From: Farysia itapuensis
Lineage: Eukaryota; Basidiomycota; Ustilaginomycetes; Ustilaginales; Ustilaginaceae
Direction: 5' to 3'
Length of the DNA stretch: 64,000 bases
Assembly (NCBI GenBank): GCA_023212645.1
Contig: JALBYC010000014.1
Location: forward strand, 248,001 to 312,000
Shown here: piece by piece, positions 142 to 22,630 of the stretch
Numbering within the stretch: position 1 is the stretch's first letter
How the letters are laid out: every line of letters begins with the position of its first letter
Program-made: the position numbers and the translations under genes
Notes under the pieces: model-generated
Seen by the model: only the letters and a program-made list of their open reading frames with translations
Database searches by the model: none
Told to the model about the DNA's origin: nothing

Positions 142-1012
142 ATGTCCTGGTTCTCGAAACAGTGGGACAAGTGGGCGGCCGACGACGCTGCTTCAGGCCG
201 TGGATCGAACAGCGGTGCAATCCGACGGATCGAGGTGGTATGGGGCAAAGAACGGTAAGCAATGCAGCTTGGAATTCCAACAGGTTCGACAAAGACTGAC
301 CCCAACCTGTGCGAACAACAGATTGCAGATTGTGCTGCCCAAGACGGCGGTGGCGGTGACACTGGGTGACTTGAAGCACGAGATTTCGTCCATCACCTCG
401 CTTCCCTACGAACGTTTGAAGCTGATTTCGCGCGGACTTGTGATGAAGGATGACCGACTGCCCCTATCGGCGTACGGTTTGCAGGACGGATCACGGATCG
501 GACTCGTGGGTAGTCGAGACGAGGGCGATCGACCAGGCAACAAGACAAGCGTCCTGCCCGTGGGAGAACAAAAGGCGCGCGAAAAAAAGGCCAAAGAAGC
601 AGACACGTCCGAATCAGGTCTGTTGGCGCGCATTCAGGAGTCGCTGGACCACTGTCGACACCAGCTCTTCCCAGACGTGGTGCGTGTCGAGAAAAGCGTA
701 GCCGCCGCGCTCACACCCACACCGACAAGAAGCGCAGCTGCACCCACACCCCTCCCCCACCCCACTGCACTACCACACGACTCGCCAAACGACCCACCGC
801 TCACCCTGACCCAGATTCAAGACGCACACCGTCGCCTCTCGGAATTTCTCCTGCGTCAGCTCCTCGCCCTCGACTCGGTGCAGGTCAACAGCGAATCCAC
901 ACGACAAGCACGCAAACTCGCCGTCAAAGAAGTCCAGTCGCACCTCGACCGACTCGACAGCGCATGGACACTCGTCAAGCAACAACAGCACAACGGCAGT
1001 GCCACCGCATAG
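142..1012 (+). CDS. BAG-family Hsp70 co-chaperone with ubiquitin-like domain
   Basis: Two exons, 142-254 and 322-1012, give 267 residues. The 67-nt intron (GTAAGC...CAG) restores one frame and joins VVWGKE to RLQIVLPKT, making a continuous ubiquitin-like fold at about residues 31-105. The C-terminal part, about 175-262, is a helical BAG-type segment rich in charged residues, ending in a helix around SHLDRLDSAWTLVKQQQ. BAG proteins bind the Hsp70 ATPase domain and promote nucleotide release; Ubl-BAG proteins can link Hsp70 to the proteasome. A low-complexity Pro/Thr linker separates the two domains. I chose ATG 142 because the upstream frame starts at a GTG and the spliced product gives an intact Ubl. 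No membrane segment is seen, unlike yeast Snl1, so the Bag1/Bag101 type is the better match. Confidence 0.8.
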
Positions 1013-1186
1013 CTCTTTGTAACGAAAGAACCTTTGTCAATCTGTGAGATCGGCTGCGATCGGGCCTCGATGTGTGTGAGATTGGGTTAAAGTTGCGTTT
1101 TTTTGATCGATTCGCAGTGATTCGAAGTGAGCTCGTTCCTTCCAATTGTGCCAAGTAGCAGCAGCAGCAGCAGTAGCATCATCAGT

Positions 1187-16214: not shown

Positions 16215-16913
16215 CTAGGATGATGATTGTGACGAGTCGGAGGTTGGTTGACCGCCATGGTATGGGTGGTTGACAAAGTTGAACCACGGAATCGTACCTA
16301 CAGTGCAGCAGTTTCAGTAAGGGTGGTGCACGGGCAGATGCGCAAAGGCGGAAGGGAGCACTTACTGAATTTGAGTTGGGAAAAGGAACTGTTGCGGTGA
16401 GCGACACCTTGCATGTAGGGAGTCAGGTCACTCTGGCTGGTATCCGTTCCGGGTGCCTTGATTCCGGCGTCGGCCATGGATTTGGCCACCGTCTGCTCCT
16501 GCTCGTTCTCCGTCCAGCCCCAGAAGCGGAAAGAGGATCGTTGGTAGGCAAACAGGAATCCACCGCACAAACCGAGGAAGCCAGCAACACGAAGGCCAGT
16601 CCCCAGTCCACGCTTGGGTCTTGTCGGGTCAAACATTTCTACCACAACAGCGTGTCAGTCCTGTGTCTACCGCTGTTGTGCGTGCGCCAACAACTTACCC
16701 ATGAGGTAGACGCCCGAGGGGAAACCAGCGGTCAGAGCGGCCCATGCGGCATAGTCGCTGGTGCGAAAGCTACGCACGACACGCGAAAAGTGCGGATCGG
16801 CATCGATGGTAGGAAACGGCGTGTCAAGCTGCTTGATCGCTGCTCCGCGTGAAAGAACTCTCCATGTCAGCTTGAGGACGGGGGGAAGAGCGGGTATTGC
16901 CCTACTTACGCAT
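16215..16913 (-). CDS. Complex I (NADH:ubiquinone oxidoreductase) 21-kDa-type accessory subunit
   Basis: Four exons: 16910-16913, 16699-16842, 16366-16638 and 16215-16297, giving 167 residues. Exon 1 contributes only ATGC. The assembled protein has the family's N-terminal block (PFPTIDADPHFSRVVRSF, then SDYAAWAALTAGFPSGVYLM) and C-terminal block (SDLTPYMQGVAHRNSSFSQL, then PWFNFVNHPYHG). These match the fungal NUXM-type 21-kDa subunit of mitochondrial complex I. Two hydrophobic segments lie at about residues 25-45 and 65-85. The introns are 60-68 nt. The second exon may start at 16842 or 16839 because GAG and CAG acceptors sit three bases apart; both keep frame. It is divergent from the mitochondrial fusion gene, 201 bp away. 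Confidence 0.88.
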
Positions 16914-17114
16914 GCTGGTGAATCGCGGTGGTTTGGAGGGCAGAGACGAGAGATGCTTCCGATGAATATCACACTCACACTTTTGGCGATCAAACACGAC
17001 TCGTGCGAGAAGCAAGGCTGAATGTCAGATCGCATTTCTTAAAATCAGAAGAAAAGAAAGAAATTTCTTGCGTGTCAAAGTGGAGAATGACATCTTGCTT
17101 GCTACACAACTCTG
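16914..17114. promoter_or_regulatory. Divergent promoter shared by two mitochondrial genes
   Basis: These 201 bp lie between the complex I subunit gene (-) and the mitochondrial fusion gene (+). An A-rich stretch (about 17039-17062) is the only obvious composition feature. Co-regulation of the pair is an inference from the arrangement. Confidence 0.4.
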
Positions 17115-20100
17115 ATGCTGTCCAGACATACCGCAGCCGCTGCAAGGCTATCGCGCACACTCGGGCCCATCGCTTCCGCTTCAGCATCAGCGCGAAACTT
17201 GACACAGTCTTCCGTCCAGCATCTGCCGCGTCAAGTACCAACAAAGTCGTACGGGCAGCCAAGTAGTGCCAGAGACAATGTCTCCAACGTCACCGAAGAA
17301 CTGAGCGGCACGGATCCAGCCGTCCCATGGTTTCTTCAGAGCGAGATCGTCGATCAGCCCACACAGACGCAAGACTCGCAGTCAACACCAGACTCGTCGT
17401 CTACAGACCATTTCTCCTACCTTCCAGCTGATGTCAGTACCCATCTGCCCGAGCCCATAGCCCAGCTCCAGTCCCATATCTTCTCTGGCCCATCGGCCAA
17501 CCTCATTGCAAGACCCGAAAATGCAGACCCGGAGCAGACTCCCATCACGCTGATTCATCCAGCTTCGCTCTCCAAGGACCCCGCCAGCGATGCGTACGGA
17601 GAGAATGACTGGATTGTGGTTGTTCAGGTACGAAGCAGCGCAGCCGGCAGTGTCCGTAGAGTCGCCCTCGACATTGGCAACTATCTCCGACACGCTCGAA
17701 CGCCAGCCATGGGTCCCGAGCCGATGGACGCTGAGGACTTTCTCGGTCCACCCCCCTCTCGTTCCCCATTACCGGCCAAGGAAAGCGCACCTATACCGCC
17801 ACAGCGTCCCAAAGGCGTCTCCCGCATCGAGCATCAGCTTGGCAAAAGTCTCCCCTCGTGGGCCGTCAACCGCATCGCGCTCCAGCGCAAATTTCCCGAA
17901 GGCTGGAAACCTCCCAAAGTGCTATCGCGCGAAGCACAAGAGGGGATCCGACTATTGCATACCACCAATCCGGAACAGTTTGGCGTCGAGGAACTGAGCA
18001 TGCGCTTCCGCATCTCGCCCGAAAGCATACGACGTATCCTCAAAGCGGGCAAATGGGTCGCTCCCGGTGAAGTGAGAAGCAGACAGGACCGTCGAGCTCG
18101 CGAAAACGCTCACAAGTCGGAAAGCGCCGAAATTGCAGAACTGCGCAGAATGGAACAAGAGAACAACGAGGTGGTGGCCGATGGCGAAAGCCCTATCATT
18201 GAGGACGACGTGGTCCTGGACGATCCTGATGCCATTGAAGCCGAGATTAAAGCGCAAGAGTCCAACCCTGGTGTCGTCCCCGTGCGTTACGAAGGCCTGG
18301 TCATGACCGCATCCGACGCGGCTAGCACCAACACCACCTCCAAACACAAGACCAACAGCAAGCGTGGAGATGGAAACTGGTGCCTCGTCGACGCAGAGTG
18401 GTGTGTCGTGCATGTCATGACAGCTCAAGCCCGCTTCAACTACGACATTGAAGGCATGTGGCGAGAATTTCAACAAGGCAGTCAGCAACGTGCCGAAAAT
18501 CCACAAGATATTACCTCGTTTGTAGCCGCACCGCCACTCAAAGCGCGCAGCAGAGCCAGACGTGACGTCCTTGGCCAAGATATAGCCAAGAAGAACCGCT
18601 TCGCCCTCGCAGCTCAACACCGCTCTGGTAACGCCTTTGGCGACAGCGAAAGGCGCTTTGGAGAACCAACAAAGTCCTCCTCCTCCGCCGCCGCCACACG
18701 CAGTGTCGGTGCAAACAAGTTCCGACGTGGACTCGCAACTAGTGCTGTAAGCAGGTCGACTGATCCCGCACTTGACCTTCCCGCCACGCTAAACCAATTA
18801 TTGTCTCGCGTCCAACAACACAGTTCCTCCCTCCCAGAGACGACGGTAACCATCAAGGCGTGGATTAGGTCCAACCGCCGTCAGAAGTCGGCCACGTTTC
18901 TCGAAGTGACAGATGGGAGCTTGGCCGGTGCGCGCACGCTTCAGGCCGTCTTGCGCACAACGCCGCAAGACCATTTCGGCACCAGCTTGCACAAGGAACA
19001 ACTTGCCGGTCTTTCCGTTGGAACCGCAGTCGAGCTCACGGGTCAGCTTCGGCCAGGCAAAGGCTCCAAAGCGGGTCAAGAGATTGAACTGCACGTGTCT
19101 GCACTCACTGTCCTCTCAGCCTGCGATCCCACATGCCCAGTCGCCGTCAAGCAGCAGCAGCAGCAGCACAGTAGCACAACAGCAGCAGGGGCAAGCACGC
19201 CAGAGTCTGCAGCTCCTTACTCGGCCTCGTTGGCCGAGAGACGCAATCCGCACCTGTTGGGCAGACTCCCCCGCTTTGCCGCACTGATGCGAACCCGAGA
19301 CCGCATCGAACAAGGCATGGCCGCCTACCTGGCGCAGAACGAGTTTGTCAAAGTCGCATGCCCCATTATCACATCAACAGACTGCGAGGGCGCGGGAGAG
19401 GTGTTCCAGCTCGGGGCTGACACCGACGTGCAGTCTCAAACCCCGCTCTCCTCCTTCTGGGCAGCTTCACCAGCTTACCTGACCGTCTCGTCGCAGCTCC
19501 ATCTCGAAGCGCTCGGTCTGGGTCTGTCGCGCGTCTGGACGCTCAATCCTGCCTTTCGCGCAGAAAGTAGTGCGACCAACCGCCATCTGGCTGAGTTCTG
19601 GATGCTCGAAGCGGAAATGTACTTTGCCGAGCTTGAAGATGCAATGGATCTGGCTGAGGGCGTGATTCGAGCGGCTATCCGCGCCGCGCTCACCGGCACC
19701 GAGGATATGCAGCTCTTGACTCACGCTCACACCCAGCATCTCGACGCACTGCAAGCTGTGCTGCAACCACGCAAATGGGCTCGAATCACCTACCACGCCG
19801 CACACGAGCTACTCAGCACCGCACATAGTCAACAACATGCATTCGTCACTCCGCCAGATTTTCACGCAGGTCTGGCGTCCGAGCATGAAAAGTTTCTCGC
19901 AGAGCAGGTCTTTCGTGCGCCCGTGTTTGTAACCCACTACCCGCGCGACCAAAAGGCGTTTTACATGCAGACCACACCGCGTGACCCCTCGCTGGTCGAG
20001 TGTTTCGACCTGCTAATCCCCGGTGTGGGCGAGCTGGTTGGTGGATCAGCACGCAGCATCACCGTCCAACCCAACATGAACGATAACTTACACTGGTACA

Positions 20101-20246
20101 CCCACGATCTTAAAGCCTACGGCGGCGCCCTACCCCACGCCGGCTTCGGCCTCGGCATGGAACGTCTAGCTGCCTACATCACTTTCACCAACAACGTACG
20201 AGATGTTGTACCCTTCCCGCGCACCAAAGGAAGAGTACGATACTAA
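17115..20246 (+). CDS. Mitochondrial fusion protein: Atp25/RsfS-like + neugrin/Rrg9-like + asparaginyl-tRNA synthetase
   Basis: A single open frame of 1043 residues. Residues 1-50 are Arg/Ser/Ala rich without acids, a mitochondrial presequence. A PWFLQ motif (about 71) recalls fungal Atp25. DWIVVVQVR...VRRVALDIGNYLRHA (about 164-195) resembles the first half of the RsfS/Iojap fold, and WCLVDAEWCVVHVMTAQARF (about 422-441) its second half. Between them, about 243-320 (SLPSWAVNRIALQRKFPEGW; FRISPESIRRILKAGKWV) is neugrin/Rrg9-like. From about 555 the protein is a class II AsnRS: an OB-fold anticodon domain, FRAESSATNRHLAEFWMLEA (motif 2) and GFGLGMERLAAYI (motif 3), close to mitochondrial Slm5/NARS2. 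A presequence-like stretch (FRRGLATSAVSRS, about 536-548) lies at the junction. The AsnRS has no nearby ATG of its own. RsfS and Rrg9 assignments are by eye; the AsnRS is certain. Confidence 0.85.
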   Translation: MLSRHTAAAARLSRTLGPIASASASARNLTQSSVQHLPRQVPTKSYGQPSSARDNVSNVTEELSGTDPAVPWFLQSEIVDQPTQTQDSQSTPDSSSTDHFSYLPADVSTHLPEPIAQLQSHIFSGPSANLIARPENADPEQTPITLIHPASLSKDPASDAYGENDWIVVVQVRSSAAGSVRRVALDIGNYLRHARTPAMGPEPMDAEDFLGPPPSRSPLPAKESAPIPPQRPKGVSRIEHQLGKSLPSWAVNRIALQRKFPEGWKPPKVLSREAQEGIRLLHTTNPEQFGVEELSMRFRISPESIRRILKAGKWVAPGEVRSRQDRRARENAHKSESAEIAELRRMEQENNEVVADGESPIIEDDVVLDDPDAIEAEIKAQESNPGVVPVRYEGLVMTASDAASTNTTSKHKTNSKRGDGNWCLVDAEWCVVHVMTAQARFNYDIEGMWREFQQGSQQRAENPQDITSFVAAPPLKARSRARRDVLGQDIAKKNRFALAAQHRSGNAFGDSERRFGEPTKSSSSAAATRSVGANKFRRGLATSAVSRSTDPALDLPATLNQLLSRVQQHSSSLPETTVTIKAWIRSNRRQKSATFLEVTDGSLAGARTLQAVLRTTPQDHFGTSLHKEQLAGLSVGTAVELTGQLRPGKGSKAGQEIELHVSALTVLSACDPTCPVAVKQQQQQHSSTTAAGASTPESAAPYSASLAERRNPHLLGRLPRFAALMRTRDRIEQGMAAYLAQNEFVKVACPIITSTDCEGAGEVFQLGADTDVQSQTPLSSFWAASPAYLTVSSQLHLEALGLGLSRVWTLNPAFRAESSATNRHLAEFWMLEAEMYFAELEDAMDLAEGVIRAAIRAALTGTEDMQLLTHAHTQHLDALQAVLQPRKWARITYHAAHELLSTAHSQQHAFVTPPDFHAGLASEHEKFLAEQVFRAPVFVTHYPRDQKAFYMQTTPRDPSLVECFDLLIPGVGELVGGSARSITVQPNMNDNLHWYTHDLKAYGGALPHAGFGLGMERLAAYITFTNNVRDVVPFPRTKGRVRY
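18747..18823 (+). other. Intron-like segment inside the fusion gene (candidate alternative splice)
   Basis: This 77-nt stretch starts GTAAGC, contains GCTAAAC at 18788-18794 as a possible branch site and ends ACAACACAG. Its length and signals match the real introns of the window. Removing it shifts frame and brings in TAG at 18866-18868, giving a 558-residue protein that ends after the presequence-like junction. Keeping it gives the fusion. Whether it is spliced is unknown. Confidence 0.35.
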
Positions 20247-20294: not shown

Positions 20295-22400
20295 TTATTC
20301 CTCTACAGTGTCGTTGTTGGTGCTGCGTTTGGAGAGGGATTGTTGGAGCCACTTTGCGTTTCGGATCTGGAAGTGAGTTTCCCGCATGCGGCGGGCGAGG
20401 GGCTGGTAGTTGTGGGAACCTTTGTAGTCACCATTGCCCAGCGGGATGACGCGAGCGGTAGATGGCTGGGCCGATATGGTGGCGGCGCCGGCGGCGCTGG
20501 CGGTGGTGGTGGTTGGGCAAGTGGGGAAGTGGGGGAAGCAGGCGTCGTCGTAGCGGGTGCGGGAGGCAATCGTCCCCGTGTGTGGACTCGCGCCAGCAAG
20601 GACAAAGTGTCGTGCCAACTCGGTAGATATCGCCGACTGGATCCACTCCTTGTGCAGTCTCAGCGCATTCCCGGACGCCGAAGCCACGTTCATCACGCCG
20701 CCCACACCTTGTGCCACCGCCATCGCGGACTCCTCCTCGTCATGACCGCCCTCGGTTGTCGACGGCGGTATTGGGCCGTCAAAACTGCTGACACGCCACT
20801 GCACGTCTGTGGGGAGAAACCCACACTCCCACAACATCAGCGGTCGATCGGCGGCCATTTCGAAGTTCGGCTTGGTCTCATACACCTCCAAGCGTGCATC
20901 TCGTTGTCGCTGTGCCTCTTGTTCTTCTGGGGTGGTGGAAGTGGGGGAGGAGAGAGAGGGGAGGATCCACATGGGCAGTCCTAGTGCCTCCTTTTCCGCT
21001 TTTGTCGGCGCACGTCGATCGCTCACCGCAGGTGGTAGTGGATCAGTGGGGTTCACTGGCATCCACCATTTTAAGCCACGCACAATCTCGCCCCCGAGCA
21101 AGTCTCCCTGTTCAAGCCGGTCCACGTCCCCCTCGTTGTCGTCGCCGTAGGTTTTGAGCGCGAATAGACGCGCGCGCACCCGATCGGCTGCAACCCTACC
21201 CTTCTCCGTATTCATCAATTCCTCCATCACCGACGGGCTTTCCAGCCGCGCACCGACGAGAAACAGGATGGCCATAATGTTGCGCACCTGGTGGTACAGG
21301 AATGCCGTTCCGCGCAGATTGAGCACGTACATGGGCTCCACCTCGCTCTGAACTGGACCACTTTGTGGCCAGAGTGTGGGGGAGCCAACAGCATCGATCG
21401 AAACGCCATCGACTCGCCGACGGTAGTTGGAAATCTGCTTGCTAGCATCGATCTTGCAGAGGTTGCGAAAATCGTGCTCGCCCAGCAGCTTGGCCGCCGC
21501 CTGGCGCATGAGCCCAATGTCCAAGCGTGTTTCCTCATGGGCAGTGCTGCTCTGCCCGTGGTGTGGCGGGTAGAAGATCGAGGGCGGGCCGGCGGTGAAA
21601 AAGTACTTGTAGTGGCGGTAGACGCAGTCGAACCTGGCGGAGAATGTGGAGCGAACAGGAGCCCATGCCTGTACGCGGATTGAGGGGGGTAAGATACGGT
21701 TAAGGGTGTGGACGTAGGCGATTTCCTCGTCCTGCAGATCCTTTTCTTGTAGCGAGGTTGATGGGTGGGGTGAATTGGGGGTGGAACGGAGGGTGTCGAC
21801 TGCGTGTCGTTCGTGCCAGAGGTTGACTTTCCGACTGCGCACCCAGAGTGCTACGACCTGTCCTGCCGCACTCACGCCCCGGTCGGTGCGACCACATCGA
21901 CTGAAGCCAGCACCGTCCATACCGAGCTCTGGATCGACCAGTCGTCCCTTGCACAGCGCATGCCACAGCACACTCTCCACCGTCAAAAGCTTACTGTCCT
22001 CTGTATTCTGCGCTGCAAGACCAGAATACAGCGCGCCGTCGTAGGAAAAGCGCAGTGCGATCTTGCGTGTCCCCGCACGTGCAAAATCCACCCCTTCACT
22101 CTCCACTTTTTTCTCCCGCTTGCTCTTGACAGATGTCTTCCTCTGCTCTGACTTCGCATGTTCCACCGCTGCTAAGCTTGCCGATTCGTCCGAGATGTTC
22201 GCGGGTTGATCCTCGGCGTTGAGACGCAGTTCAAGCTCAGCTATGCGGAGCAAGAGGTTGTCCGTACTCCAGCCTTTGTACTTTAGCGCAGCTTCCATCT
22301 TGGCGTTCCAGATGTTGAGAGGTTGACGAACAGCGGTGCTGGTAGTGAATGGCGCTTTGGGATTCGCGCGGAGTAGACAGAGTGCGGTGCGTAGCCGCAT
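20295..22400 (-). CDS. PUS3: tRNA pseudouridine(38/39) synthase
   Basis: A 701-residue intronless TruA-family enzyme (yeast Deg1/Pus3). The catalytic block FSRCGRTDRGVSAAGQVVAL contains the nucleophile Asp173. RVQAWAPV...FSARFDCVYRHYKYFF and LRGTAFLYHQVRNIMAILFL are the other TruA signatures. The enzyme converts U38/U39 in the tRNA anticodon stem to pseudouridine. The first ATG (22400) gives an Arg-rich, acid-free leader (MRLRTALCLLRANPKAPFTT) typical of a mitochondrial presequence. A second ATG at 22298 (MEAALKYKGWSTDNLLLRIA) would give the cytosolic/nuclear form. The C-terminal about 250 residues, with Pro-rich and low-complexity parts, extend beyond the catalytic core. It is convergent with the fusion gene (48 bp between stops). 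Confidence 0.92.
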   Translation of the reverse strand: MRLRTALCLLRANPKAPFTTSTAVRQPLNIWNAKMEAALKYKGWSTDNLLLRIAELELRLNAEDQPANISDESASLAAVEHAKSEQRKTSVKSKREKKVESEGVDFARAGTRKIALRFSYDGALYSGLAAQNTEDSKLLTVESVLWHALCKGRLVDPELGMDGAGFSRCGRTDRGVSAAGQVVALWVRSRKVNLWHERHAVDTLRSTPNSPHPSTSLQEKDLQDEEIAYVHTLNRILPPSIRVQAWAPVRSTFSARFDCVYRHYKYFFTAGPPSIFYPPHHGQSSTAHEETRLDIGLMRQAAAKLLGEHDFRNLCKIDASKQISNYRRRVDGVSIDAVGSPTLWPQSGPVQSEVEPMYVLNLRGTAFLYHQVRNIMAILFLVGARLESPSVMEELMNTEKGRVAADRVRARLFALKTYGDDNEGDVDRLEQGDLLGGEIVRGLKWWMPVNPTDPLPPAVSDRRAPTKAEKEALGLPMWILPSLSSPTSTTPEEQEAQRQRDARLEVYETKPNFEMAADRPLMLWECGFLPTDVQWRVSSFDGPIPPSTTEGGHDEEESAMAVAQGVGGVMNVASASGNALRLHKEWIQSAISTELARHFVLAGASPHTGTIASRTRYDDACFPHFPTCPTTTTASAAGAATISAQPSTARVIPLGNGDYKGSHNYQPLARRMRETHFQIRNAKWLQQSLSKRSTNNDTVEE

Positions 22401-22630
22401 ACGTAAGTGAATCAACCCCCCCCCCCCTTCTCTCTCTTACACGCCGGCAGTACTTGATGGGAGAAAAGCGTCAAAATCCAGCCGCGAATATTCTCACTCA
22501 TTTGTTGCCCAAAACAACCTCCGAGTTCCGGTATCCGACTTCCATCGTGTCCCAAACACACAACGGTGGGTATGGGATTATAAAAGTGTCCGTGGTGGGG
22601 GAAAACAAGTGGGGTCGGGGGGGGGGAGAT
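22401..22630. other. Intergenic region with C12 and G10 homopolymers
   Basis: These 230 bp separate two minus-strand genes. C12 (22416-22427) lies 16 bp upstream of the PUS3 start, and G10 (22617-22626) lies just after the stop of the Smr-domain gene. This must contain the PUS3 promoter and the upstream gene's 3' end. Confidence 0.6.

Follow-up and report, generated by a model that had tools for sequence, protein, structure and literature searches.

Atp25 of Saccharomyces cerevisiae is a composite mitochondrial precursor that is headed by an RsfS domain and is cut between its parts in yeast. The paper describing this (PMC7560712) also reports the idea that the fusion protects cytosolic ribosomes from the RsfS factor in transit. 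An MPP-type site likewise lies inside other tandem precursors, namely Arg5,6 of S. cerevisiae, Rsm22-Cox11 and Etp1 of S. pombe, and RPS14 of rice, as described in PMC8847149. Among proteins with related domains, the MALSU1 module binds at uL14, where it is believed to keep the subunits from joining too early, and loss of NGRN depletes 16S rRNA (both from PMC8067846).

A long open reading frame on the plus strand of the window, a 64,000-nucleotide stretch of the genome of the smut fungus Farysia itapuensis, was analysed. The initial annotation had described it as an uninterrupted frame of 1043 codons joining two mitochondrial genes head to tail and had named Atp25 as a precedent for a cleaved RsfS-like precursor. 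The precedent is documented in PMC7560712, and the raw DNA indeed reads from ATG to stop without a single internal stop. Across 200 base-shuffled versions of this DNA the longest stop-free run was 285 codons (mean 155). The start of the frame aligns with the starts of its relatives. A Pfam search revealed five families in the ORF. The HMM comparison of both halves called for by the annotation gave matches to Neugrin, RsfS, OB-fold and class II synthetase that all exceed the Pfam cut-offs, as well as a match to TIGR00457.

Features of the composite open reading frame and the basis of each assignment (↓, predicted cut)
Feature	Positions	Strand	Residues	Basis
Putative composite-precursor ORF, RsfS-neugrin / mitochondrial AsnRS	17115..20246	+	1043 aa	both halves likewise fused in 20 relatives
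Predicted N-terminal presequence; predicted cut after RNL (R27-N28-L29↓T30)	17115..17201	+	1-29	inferred
RsfS domain, first half	17442..17699	+	about 110-195	
Neugrin domain, inserted in RsfS domain (helix-turn-helix core 270-314)	17910..18188	+	266-358	
RsfS domain, second half	18282..18497	+	about 390-461	Pfam PF02410; profile match to solved RsfS chains
Linker, predicted disordered, zero ATG in forward frames	18498..18758	+	462-548	pLDDT <50; ATG scan
Predicted MPP/Icp55 cleavage motif RGL↓ATS (R538-G539-L540↓A541-T542-S543); predicted first residue of mature AsnRS, A541 (18735)	18726..18743	+	538-543	motif match
AsnRS OB-fold anticodon-binding domain	18846..19115	+	578-667	Pfam PF01336
AsnRS class II catalytic domain	19242..20228	+	710-1038	Pfam PF00152, 186.9 bits; TIGR00457

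Judged by its sequence, the C-terminal half is a complete AsnRS of the mitochondrial type, as had been claimed for it. Both the OB and class II domains are recognized by Pfam, and with 373.6 bits the TIGR00457 (asnS) score exceeds its cut-off of 342.6. This half was aligned to the solved AsnRS structures 6pqh and 5zg8. In a tree that held no cytosolic rows it clusters with free-standing fungal AsnRS, several of them annotated as mitochondrial. The genome has a single further AsnRS match, which shares 33% identity with it and resembles cytoplasmic AsnRS (8tc8, 2e-185).

In the N-terminal half a neugrin domain interrupts a domain of the RsfS/MALSU1/Atp25-N type, and a complete RsfS fold was found there. 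The Pfam matches are partial: PF02410 covers residues 402-449, the C-terminal part of RsfS (31.1 bits, gathering score 21.6; profile positions 66-98 only), and the neugrin match (36.9 bits, gathering score 24) covers profile positions 7-95 of 218. When the neugrin insert was removed and the RsfS parts were joined, Pfam scores in three such rescans rose from 31.1 to 34.4, from 38.6 to 40.8 and from 36.7 to 39.6 bits; the alignment reached the first half of the profile for just one of these constructs. Since this gain is small, the nesting is deduced from structure alignment. The name Atp25/RsfS-neugrin given initially thus holds as far as the presence of both domains is concerned, but neugrin lies within RsfS and not after it. 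Identity with Atp25 sensu stricto was rejected: none of the five Pfam families found in the ORF is the C-terminal M-domain of Atp25, whose place is occupied by AsnRS.

RsfS, neugrin and synthetase were found joined in 20 relatives among 32 database matches, with the OB-fold also listed by Pfam in 18 of them. Those with a named organism (13 of 20) belong to Ustilaginales and Violaceomyces; the protein search by 5-residue words is limited and is not evidence that groups other than Ustilaginomycotina lack RsfS-neugrin or the fusion. RsfS-neugrin and AsnRS are separate proteins in Malassezia and Exobasidiomycetes. In the only two outgroup species where both halves were found, they lie on different contigs, of 4981867 and 7127044 bases in Exobasidium rhododendri and of 3138396 and 4498260 bases in Sympodiomycopsis kandeliae. 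The fused proteins, including the 20 full-length relatives, form one clade in the AsnRS tree (100/97), beside a clade that holds 10 free-standing rows, of which two bear the name Malassezia, and one clade in the RsfS-neugrin tree (98/98). Because the trees of both halves agree in this, the sequences point to one fusion event. The fused relatives, the unfused related lineages and both trees support the proposal that two mitochondrial genes were fused head to tail. The annotation had held that unlinked halves in relatives, with the frame proving a local assembly artefact, would speak against it; the halves are unlinked in outgroups only, and the frame did not prove to be such an artefact. No description of a smut RsfS-neugrin/AsnRS fusion was found among the titles and abstract openings listed, in a search that covers few subscription journals, and the literature search returned no mention of UMAG_04607, the U. 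maydis protein. As a separate observation, at least two Malassezia RsfS-neugrin proteins are named asparagine--tRNA ligase while having no synthetase domain.

The junction stretch FRRGLATSAVSRS, which the annotation had likened to a second presequence, is present in the ORF. The cut it had placed near residues 540-555 fits the predicted motif at R538-S543. This motif follows the MPP/Icp55 consensus taken from PMC8847149, RX(F/Y/I/L)↓(S/A)(S/T); a widened pattern was written after the alignment was seen. The published pattern occurs just before AsnRS in 20 of the 21 linkers, against a mean shuffle expectation of 0.071 per linker, and in 233 of 3063 segments of equal length elsewhere in the same proteins. 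The widened pattern occurs shortly before AsnRS in all 21; P0011 has RSFTT in its linker, outside the published consensus. In U. maydis UMAG_04607 the junction motif reads RGF↓SSC. The relatives behind these counts are not independent, 17 of 20 lying within one clade above Testicularia; for six rows picked to represent separate lineages, and treated as independent, the shuffle expectations multiply to 1e-7. The stretch preceding the motif is positively charged, at the median 89th percentile of the 30-mers of the same proteins, but only weakly amphipathic.

The widened motif stands 5-23 residues ahead of the AsnRS LPxT/S-L block in 20 of 21 fused proteins (those in which the block was recognized), and 0-19 residues ahead of it in the 39 free-standing AsnRS where both features were found. 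A similar motif is present at the start of 52 of 92 free-standing AsnRS with a recognizable start. Even the widened form is absent from the other 40, and just two of the 10 rows of the sister clade (P0069 and P0076) have the motif, so simple retention of a cleavage site from free-standing AsnRS is not certain.

At the N-terminus, a widened motif of the R-x-L-T/S-S type was found in 14 of the 21 fused proteins, and four of the seven models without it lack the N-terminus. The window protein, whose RNLTQS fits neither the widened nor the published pattern exactly, is among the other three. By the published S/A consensus, 5 of 16 fused proteins have the motif (4 of 16 without counting P0003).

Two mitochondrial proteins, as judged by domain content, are thus found in one frame with an MPP/Icp55-type motif between them, as in a composite precursor. 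We consider it probable that the gene encodes such a precursor, which would undergo a single import and be cleaved near residues 539-541 by MPP/Icp55. The N-terminal presequence would carry the whole chain into the matrix, where MPP would remove it and also cut inside the linker at RG↓L-ATS, and Icp55 would then trim the leucine. Two separate proteins would result. The RsfS-neugrin factor may act on the maturing large mitoribosomal subunit, through anti-association at uL14 by RsfS and rRNA assembly by neugrin, and the free AsnRS would charge mitochondrial tRNA-Asn. At fusion, the AsnRS presequence would have lost its start codon and its targeting role, with the cleavage site kept or regained.

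An alternative, which we regard as unlikely, is that the protein stays uncut and is bifunctional, with AsnRS tethered to RsfS-neugrin on the large mitoribosomal subunit and tRNA charging coupled to subunit assembly. Both halves serve mitochondrial translation, none of the 21 proteins examined has them apart, and the cleavage is a prediction. Alignment of the fused proteins reveals a linker of variable sequence, predicted to be disordered, in which a presequence-type motif is nevertheless kept before AsnRS, which argues for cutting; however, a second conserved linker island, of the KRD-x-FG type, is present in 20 of 21 and shows that conservation of a linker motif need not mean cutting. A permanently tethered AsnRS might obstruct maturing subunits, and the documented composite precursors are cut, according to PMC8847149.

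Separate expression of the two proteins, AsnRS from an internal promoter, by alternative splicing or from a non-AUG start and RsfS-neugrin by early polyadenylation, appears quite improbable. As annotated, AsnRS has no ATG nearby: none occurs in any forward frame at positions 18457-18912, residues 449-724 contain no in-frame Met, and a start at the next in-frame ATG (residue 725, inside the catalytic domain) would drop the OB domain. Near-cognate codons are available in frame (ATT at 18510, ATA at 18582), and non-AUG starts are known from mitochondrial synthetases of yeast. A Met is found between RsfS and the motif in 9 of the 21 fused proteins, but the remaining 12, including those of the window and of U. 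maydis, have none. An ancestral internal ATG at the KRD(M/V/L)FG site was rejected, the aligned site being Val, Ile or Leu in early branches (P0001, P0003, P0021, P0020), with Met confined to some of the later branches. One donor-like GTAAGC at 18747 found no paired branch and acceptor in a limited splice scan. Inspection of the linker by eye revealed no 2A-type stop-carry-on peptide. Within the ORF no ATG-free gap is longer than this one of 457 nt; taken alone it is weak evidence, because two longer gaps exist on the plus strand of the window, and it was rejected as positive evidence.

An artefact, either misassembly in the window or wrong joining of gene models by predictors in relatives, is largely refuted and scarcely credible: some models of relatives have evident faults (the catalytic domain is missing from P0022 and part of the OB region from P0017, and P0010, P0012, P0013 and P0014 start late), but the frame is open in raw window DNA, and 20 further sequences, drawn from several sources, show this order too, with a junction that can be aligned.

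Cleaved composite mitochondrial precursors are already known; the new points are the neugrin domain nested in RsfS and a probable second RsfS composite precursor. The smut case would add a tRNA synthetase as a partner, and a single frame would fix both products at equal synthesis. The protection idea becomes testable by convergence, on RsfS fused to a different partner in a lineage far from yeast. We tentatively suggest that cleavable composite precursors headed by RsfS have arisen two or more times, ascomycetes having joined it to the M-domain and smuts to AsnRS, which are unrelated partners. If true, this would point to selection for masked import, with RsfS unable to silence cytosolic ribosomes. 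The nested neugrin, which combines two large-subunit assembly factors in one unit, would then be a further masking layer or would couple two steps of large-subunit assembly within one protein. For annotation, the name asparagine--tRNA ligase, as given to smut proteins, covers two proteins.

Like the smut protein, Atp25 of S. cerevisiae and Neurospora crassa has an N-terminal RsfS domain and a second protein downstream, but in Atp25 the latter is an M-domain that stabilises ATP9 mRNA and in the smut protein a tRNA synthetase. Atp25 is not known to have a neugrin domain nested in its RsfS domain. Arg5,6, Rsm22-Cox11, Etp1 and RPS14 join other protein pairs, and cleavage of Arg5,6 was shown by experiment, whereas that of the smut protein is predicted. 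The free-standing mitochondrial AsnRS of basidiomycetes, named Slm5 in yeast, has the same OB and catalytic domains as the smut AsnRS half, and its R-x-F/L-S-S/T motif, where present, typically stands right before the LPxTI-x-QLL block; unlike the smut half, it is not fused and has its own start codon and presequence. The RsfS-neugrin proteins of Malassezia and Exobasidiomycetes share the layout of the smut N-terminal half but end soon after the RsfS domain, without linker or AsnRS. Human MALSU1 and NGRN and yeast Rrg9 are domain relatives of that half described as acting on the large mitoribosomal subunit, the likeness to NGRN and Rrg9 being partial, as the extent of the neugrin profile match indicates. 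MALSU1 and NGRN are separate proteins in humans, and domains related to theirs are joined in the smut protein.

The frame joining an RsfS–neugrin part to a mitochondrial-type asparaginyl-tRNA synthetase (AsnRS), claimed in the initial annotation to be open for 1043 codons, was confirmed on the raw sequence: it runs from ATG to stop without interruption. When this DNA was shuffled base by base 200 times, the longest stop-free run reached 285 codons. Profile searches revealed the Pfam domains listed in the table, and the fusion protein scored 373.6 bits with TIGR00457 (asnS; cut-off 342.6). The synthetase core can be aligned to solved AsnRS structures 6pqh and 5zg8. The upstream complex I gene was matched as two pieces, as though an intron divided it. 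It points away from the fusion gene, and if it starts at the ATG at 17035 the two start codons are ~80 bases apart; the downstream gene is convergent.

Features of the fusion gene and its surroundings (window positions; residues of the 1043-residue product)
Feature	Window position	Residues	Strand	Basis
Complex I 21 kDa subunit gene	16301–17035		−	
Fusion gene	17115–20246		+	Open frame
Neugrin		266–358	+	Pfam, over cut-off
RsfS, C-terminal part		402–449	+	Pfam, over cut-off
Predicted disordered linker		462–548		pLDDT <50, full-length structure model
Second linker island	18552–18575	480–487		
Predicted cleavage motif		538–543		
OB-fold		578–667	+	Pfam, over cut-off
Class II synthetase core		710–1038	+	Pfam, over cut-off
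Donor-like GTAAGC	18747			
tRNA pseudouridine synthase gene	20298–22415		−	

The genome (13.7 Mb, 53 contigs), which belongs to the Ustilaginomycotina judging by the relatives of this protein, was searched for RsfS, neugrin and AsnRS. Among the best candidates, which were the ones scored, the fusion locus was the sole match for RsfS, for neugrin and for mitochondrial-type AsnRS. A second AsnRS, on contig C18, resembles the cytoplasmic enzyme, and two further matches in the AsnRS search were judged by eye to be AspRS-like. A 1032-aa frame on contig C23 (locus L003, 391–3489, minus strand) combines an AspRS-like domain with a further C-terminal part, presumably akin to that of fungal ergosteryl-aspartate synthase (AspRS-DUF2156).

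A whole-length search returned 32 proteins. Twenty carry RsfS, neugrin and synthetase together (OB-fold also listed in 18), 11 are synthetases without RsfS, and the remaining one (P0022) is an incomplete model that covers just the N-terminal half and the OB-fold. The 13 fused relatives with organism names come from Violaceomyces palustris and Ustilaginales, including Sporisorium, Ustilago, Mycosarcoma maydis (UMAG_04607), Testicularia, Melanopsichium, Moesziomyces, Kalmanozyma and Pseudozyma. With the N-terminal half as query 35 proteins were found, 25 of which (P0036–P0060) have RsfS, mostly with neugrin, and no synthetase; named ones are from Malassezia, Exobasidium, Acaromyces, Microstroma and Sympodiomycopsis. 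The AsnRS half matched 5554 proteins; of the 120 listed, 2 are fused and the other 118 are for the most part free-standing AsnRS, some of them fragmentary. The concern that the halves are unlinked in relatives and the frame is a local artefact held in its first part only: they lie on different contigs in Exobasidium rhododendri (4981867 versus 7127044 bases) and Sympodiomycopsis kandeliae (3138396 versus 4498260 bases), the two species with both halves in named records among the matches listed, but 20 relatives are fused.

In an AsnRS tree of the 21 fused rows and 30 of the 118 others, all fused rows form one clade (support 100/97), whose sister is a group of 10 free-standing rows including two named Malassezia (join 97/94). 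An RsfS–neugrin tree of 45 rows, several flagged as long branches, unites all 22 fused rows, P0022 included (98/98). The head-to-tail joining of two genes read initially from one locus is thus old, real and conserved, and we regard the fusion itself as virtually certain. From these sequences we infer a single event in an ancestor shared by Violaceomyces and Ustilaginales, once the Malassezia lineage had branched off.

Several database records deserve comment. Malassezia P0036 and P0039 (433 and 399 aa) have RsfS and neugrin and no synthetase domain, yet are named asparagine--tRNA ligase, a name probably transferred from the smut fusion. Among P0034, P0075 and P0080 are records labelled Cichorium endivia with a copy of the fusion gene, split into two models with adjoining locus tags, both on contigs of 180987 bases, and similar by eye to Moesziomyces P0018; an AsnRS labelled Adiantum nelumboides clusters with Meira in the AsnRS tree. 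Both are likely fungal contamination of plant assemblies. P0004 and P0017 model the same Pseudozyma hubeiensis gene (1059 versus 1026 aa); part of the OB region that the other aligned sequences have is missing from P0017, probably through a miscalled intron.

The linker is 92–132 residues long in the fused proteins. The Icp55 consensus R-X-(F/Y/I/L)-(S/A)-(S/T), as given in PMC8847149, occurs in 20 of 21 linkers, P0011 having RSFTT instead; composition shuffling predicts 0.071 matches per linker, and 233 of 3063 equal-length segments drawn elsewhere from the same proteins contain one. A slightly wider pattern, composed after the alignment was seen, matched 21/21 linkers against 0.045 expected. 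The relatives do not count as independent, 17 of the 20 falling within one clade of the AsnRS tree; shuffle expectations multiplied over six rows picked to represent separate lineages, and treated as independent, give 1e-7. By the wider pattern, the motif lies 5–23 residues upstream of a conserved LPxT/S-L block in 20 proteins, the block being unrecognised in P0019. The 30 residues ahead of the motif are basic (median 89th percentile) but weakly amphipathic. A second conserved island, which varies slightly around R-x-(K/R)-(R/K)-D-(V/M/L/I)-(F/L)-G, is found ~20–50 residues upstream of the predicted cut in every linker except that of P0020 (20/21); it is perhaps a functional C-terminal tail of mature RsfS–neugrin.

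Separate expression of the AsnRS half is unlikely. As initially stated, this half has no ATG near its own beginning: none occurs from 18457 to 18912 in any forward frame, and there is no in-frame Met between residues 448 and 725; a start at 725 would drop the OB domain. Such a gap is not exceptional, two longer ones being present on the plus strand of the window, and Met between RsfS and the motif is absent from 12 fused proteins but present in 9. The donor-like GTAAGC could favour a separate transcript, but a limited splice scan found no paired branch and acceptor.

In many Agaricomycetes, free-standing AsnRS opens with a short presequence that follows the pattern M..RRFASTS..LPPTIRQLL. Among the 92 free-standing rows whose start could be recognised, 52 have the wider motif and 40 lack it; where both motif and block were seen (n=39), the motif lies 0–19 residues ahead of the block. 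The junction site is best read as the former AsnRS presequence site, kept or newly strengthened after fusion; plain retention is less certain because only 2 of 10 sister-clade rows (P0069, P0076) have the motif. At the N-terminus, the wider pattern finds a related motif in 14 of 21 fused proteins and the published one in 4/16 (5/16 once the P0003 cut is corrected), so the predicted presequence there is plausible, not proven.

The most likely course of events is import followed by two MPP cuts yielding two mature proteins. The N-terminal presequence would import the whole chain, MPP would cleave twice, near residue 29 and at 539/540, and Icp55 would trim L540, leaving RsfS–neugrin (~30–539) and AsnRS (541–1043). 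The latter would charge mitochondrial tRNA-Asn, and the former would act on the large mitoribosomal subunit by analogy with MALSU1/Atp25 and neugrin, whose roles there are described in PMC7560712 and PMC8067846. We consider cleavage into two proteins probable, and the low sister-clade count leaves this estimate unchanged because nearly all fused proteins have the motif. Processing of Atp25 and of Arg5,6 was reportedly described originally in Woellhaf 2016 and Friedl 2020. According to a suggestion cited in PMC7560712, the Atp25 fusion spares cytosolic ribosomes off-target effects. This idea is consistent with RsfS having been fused a second time, here to a different partner, but two cases are few and the partner could be a matter of chance. 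Known parallels to the arrangement described here are Atp25, Arg5,6, Rsm22-Cox11 and Etp1 (PMC7560712, PMC8847149).
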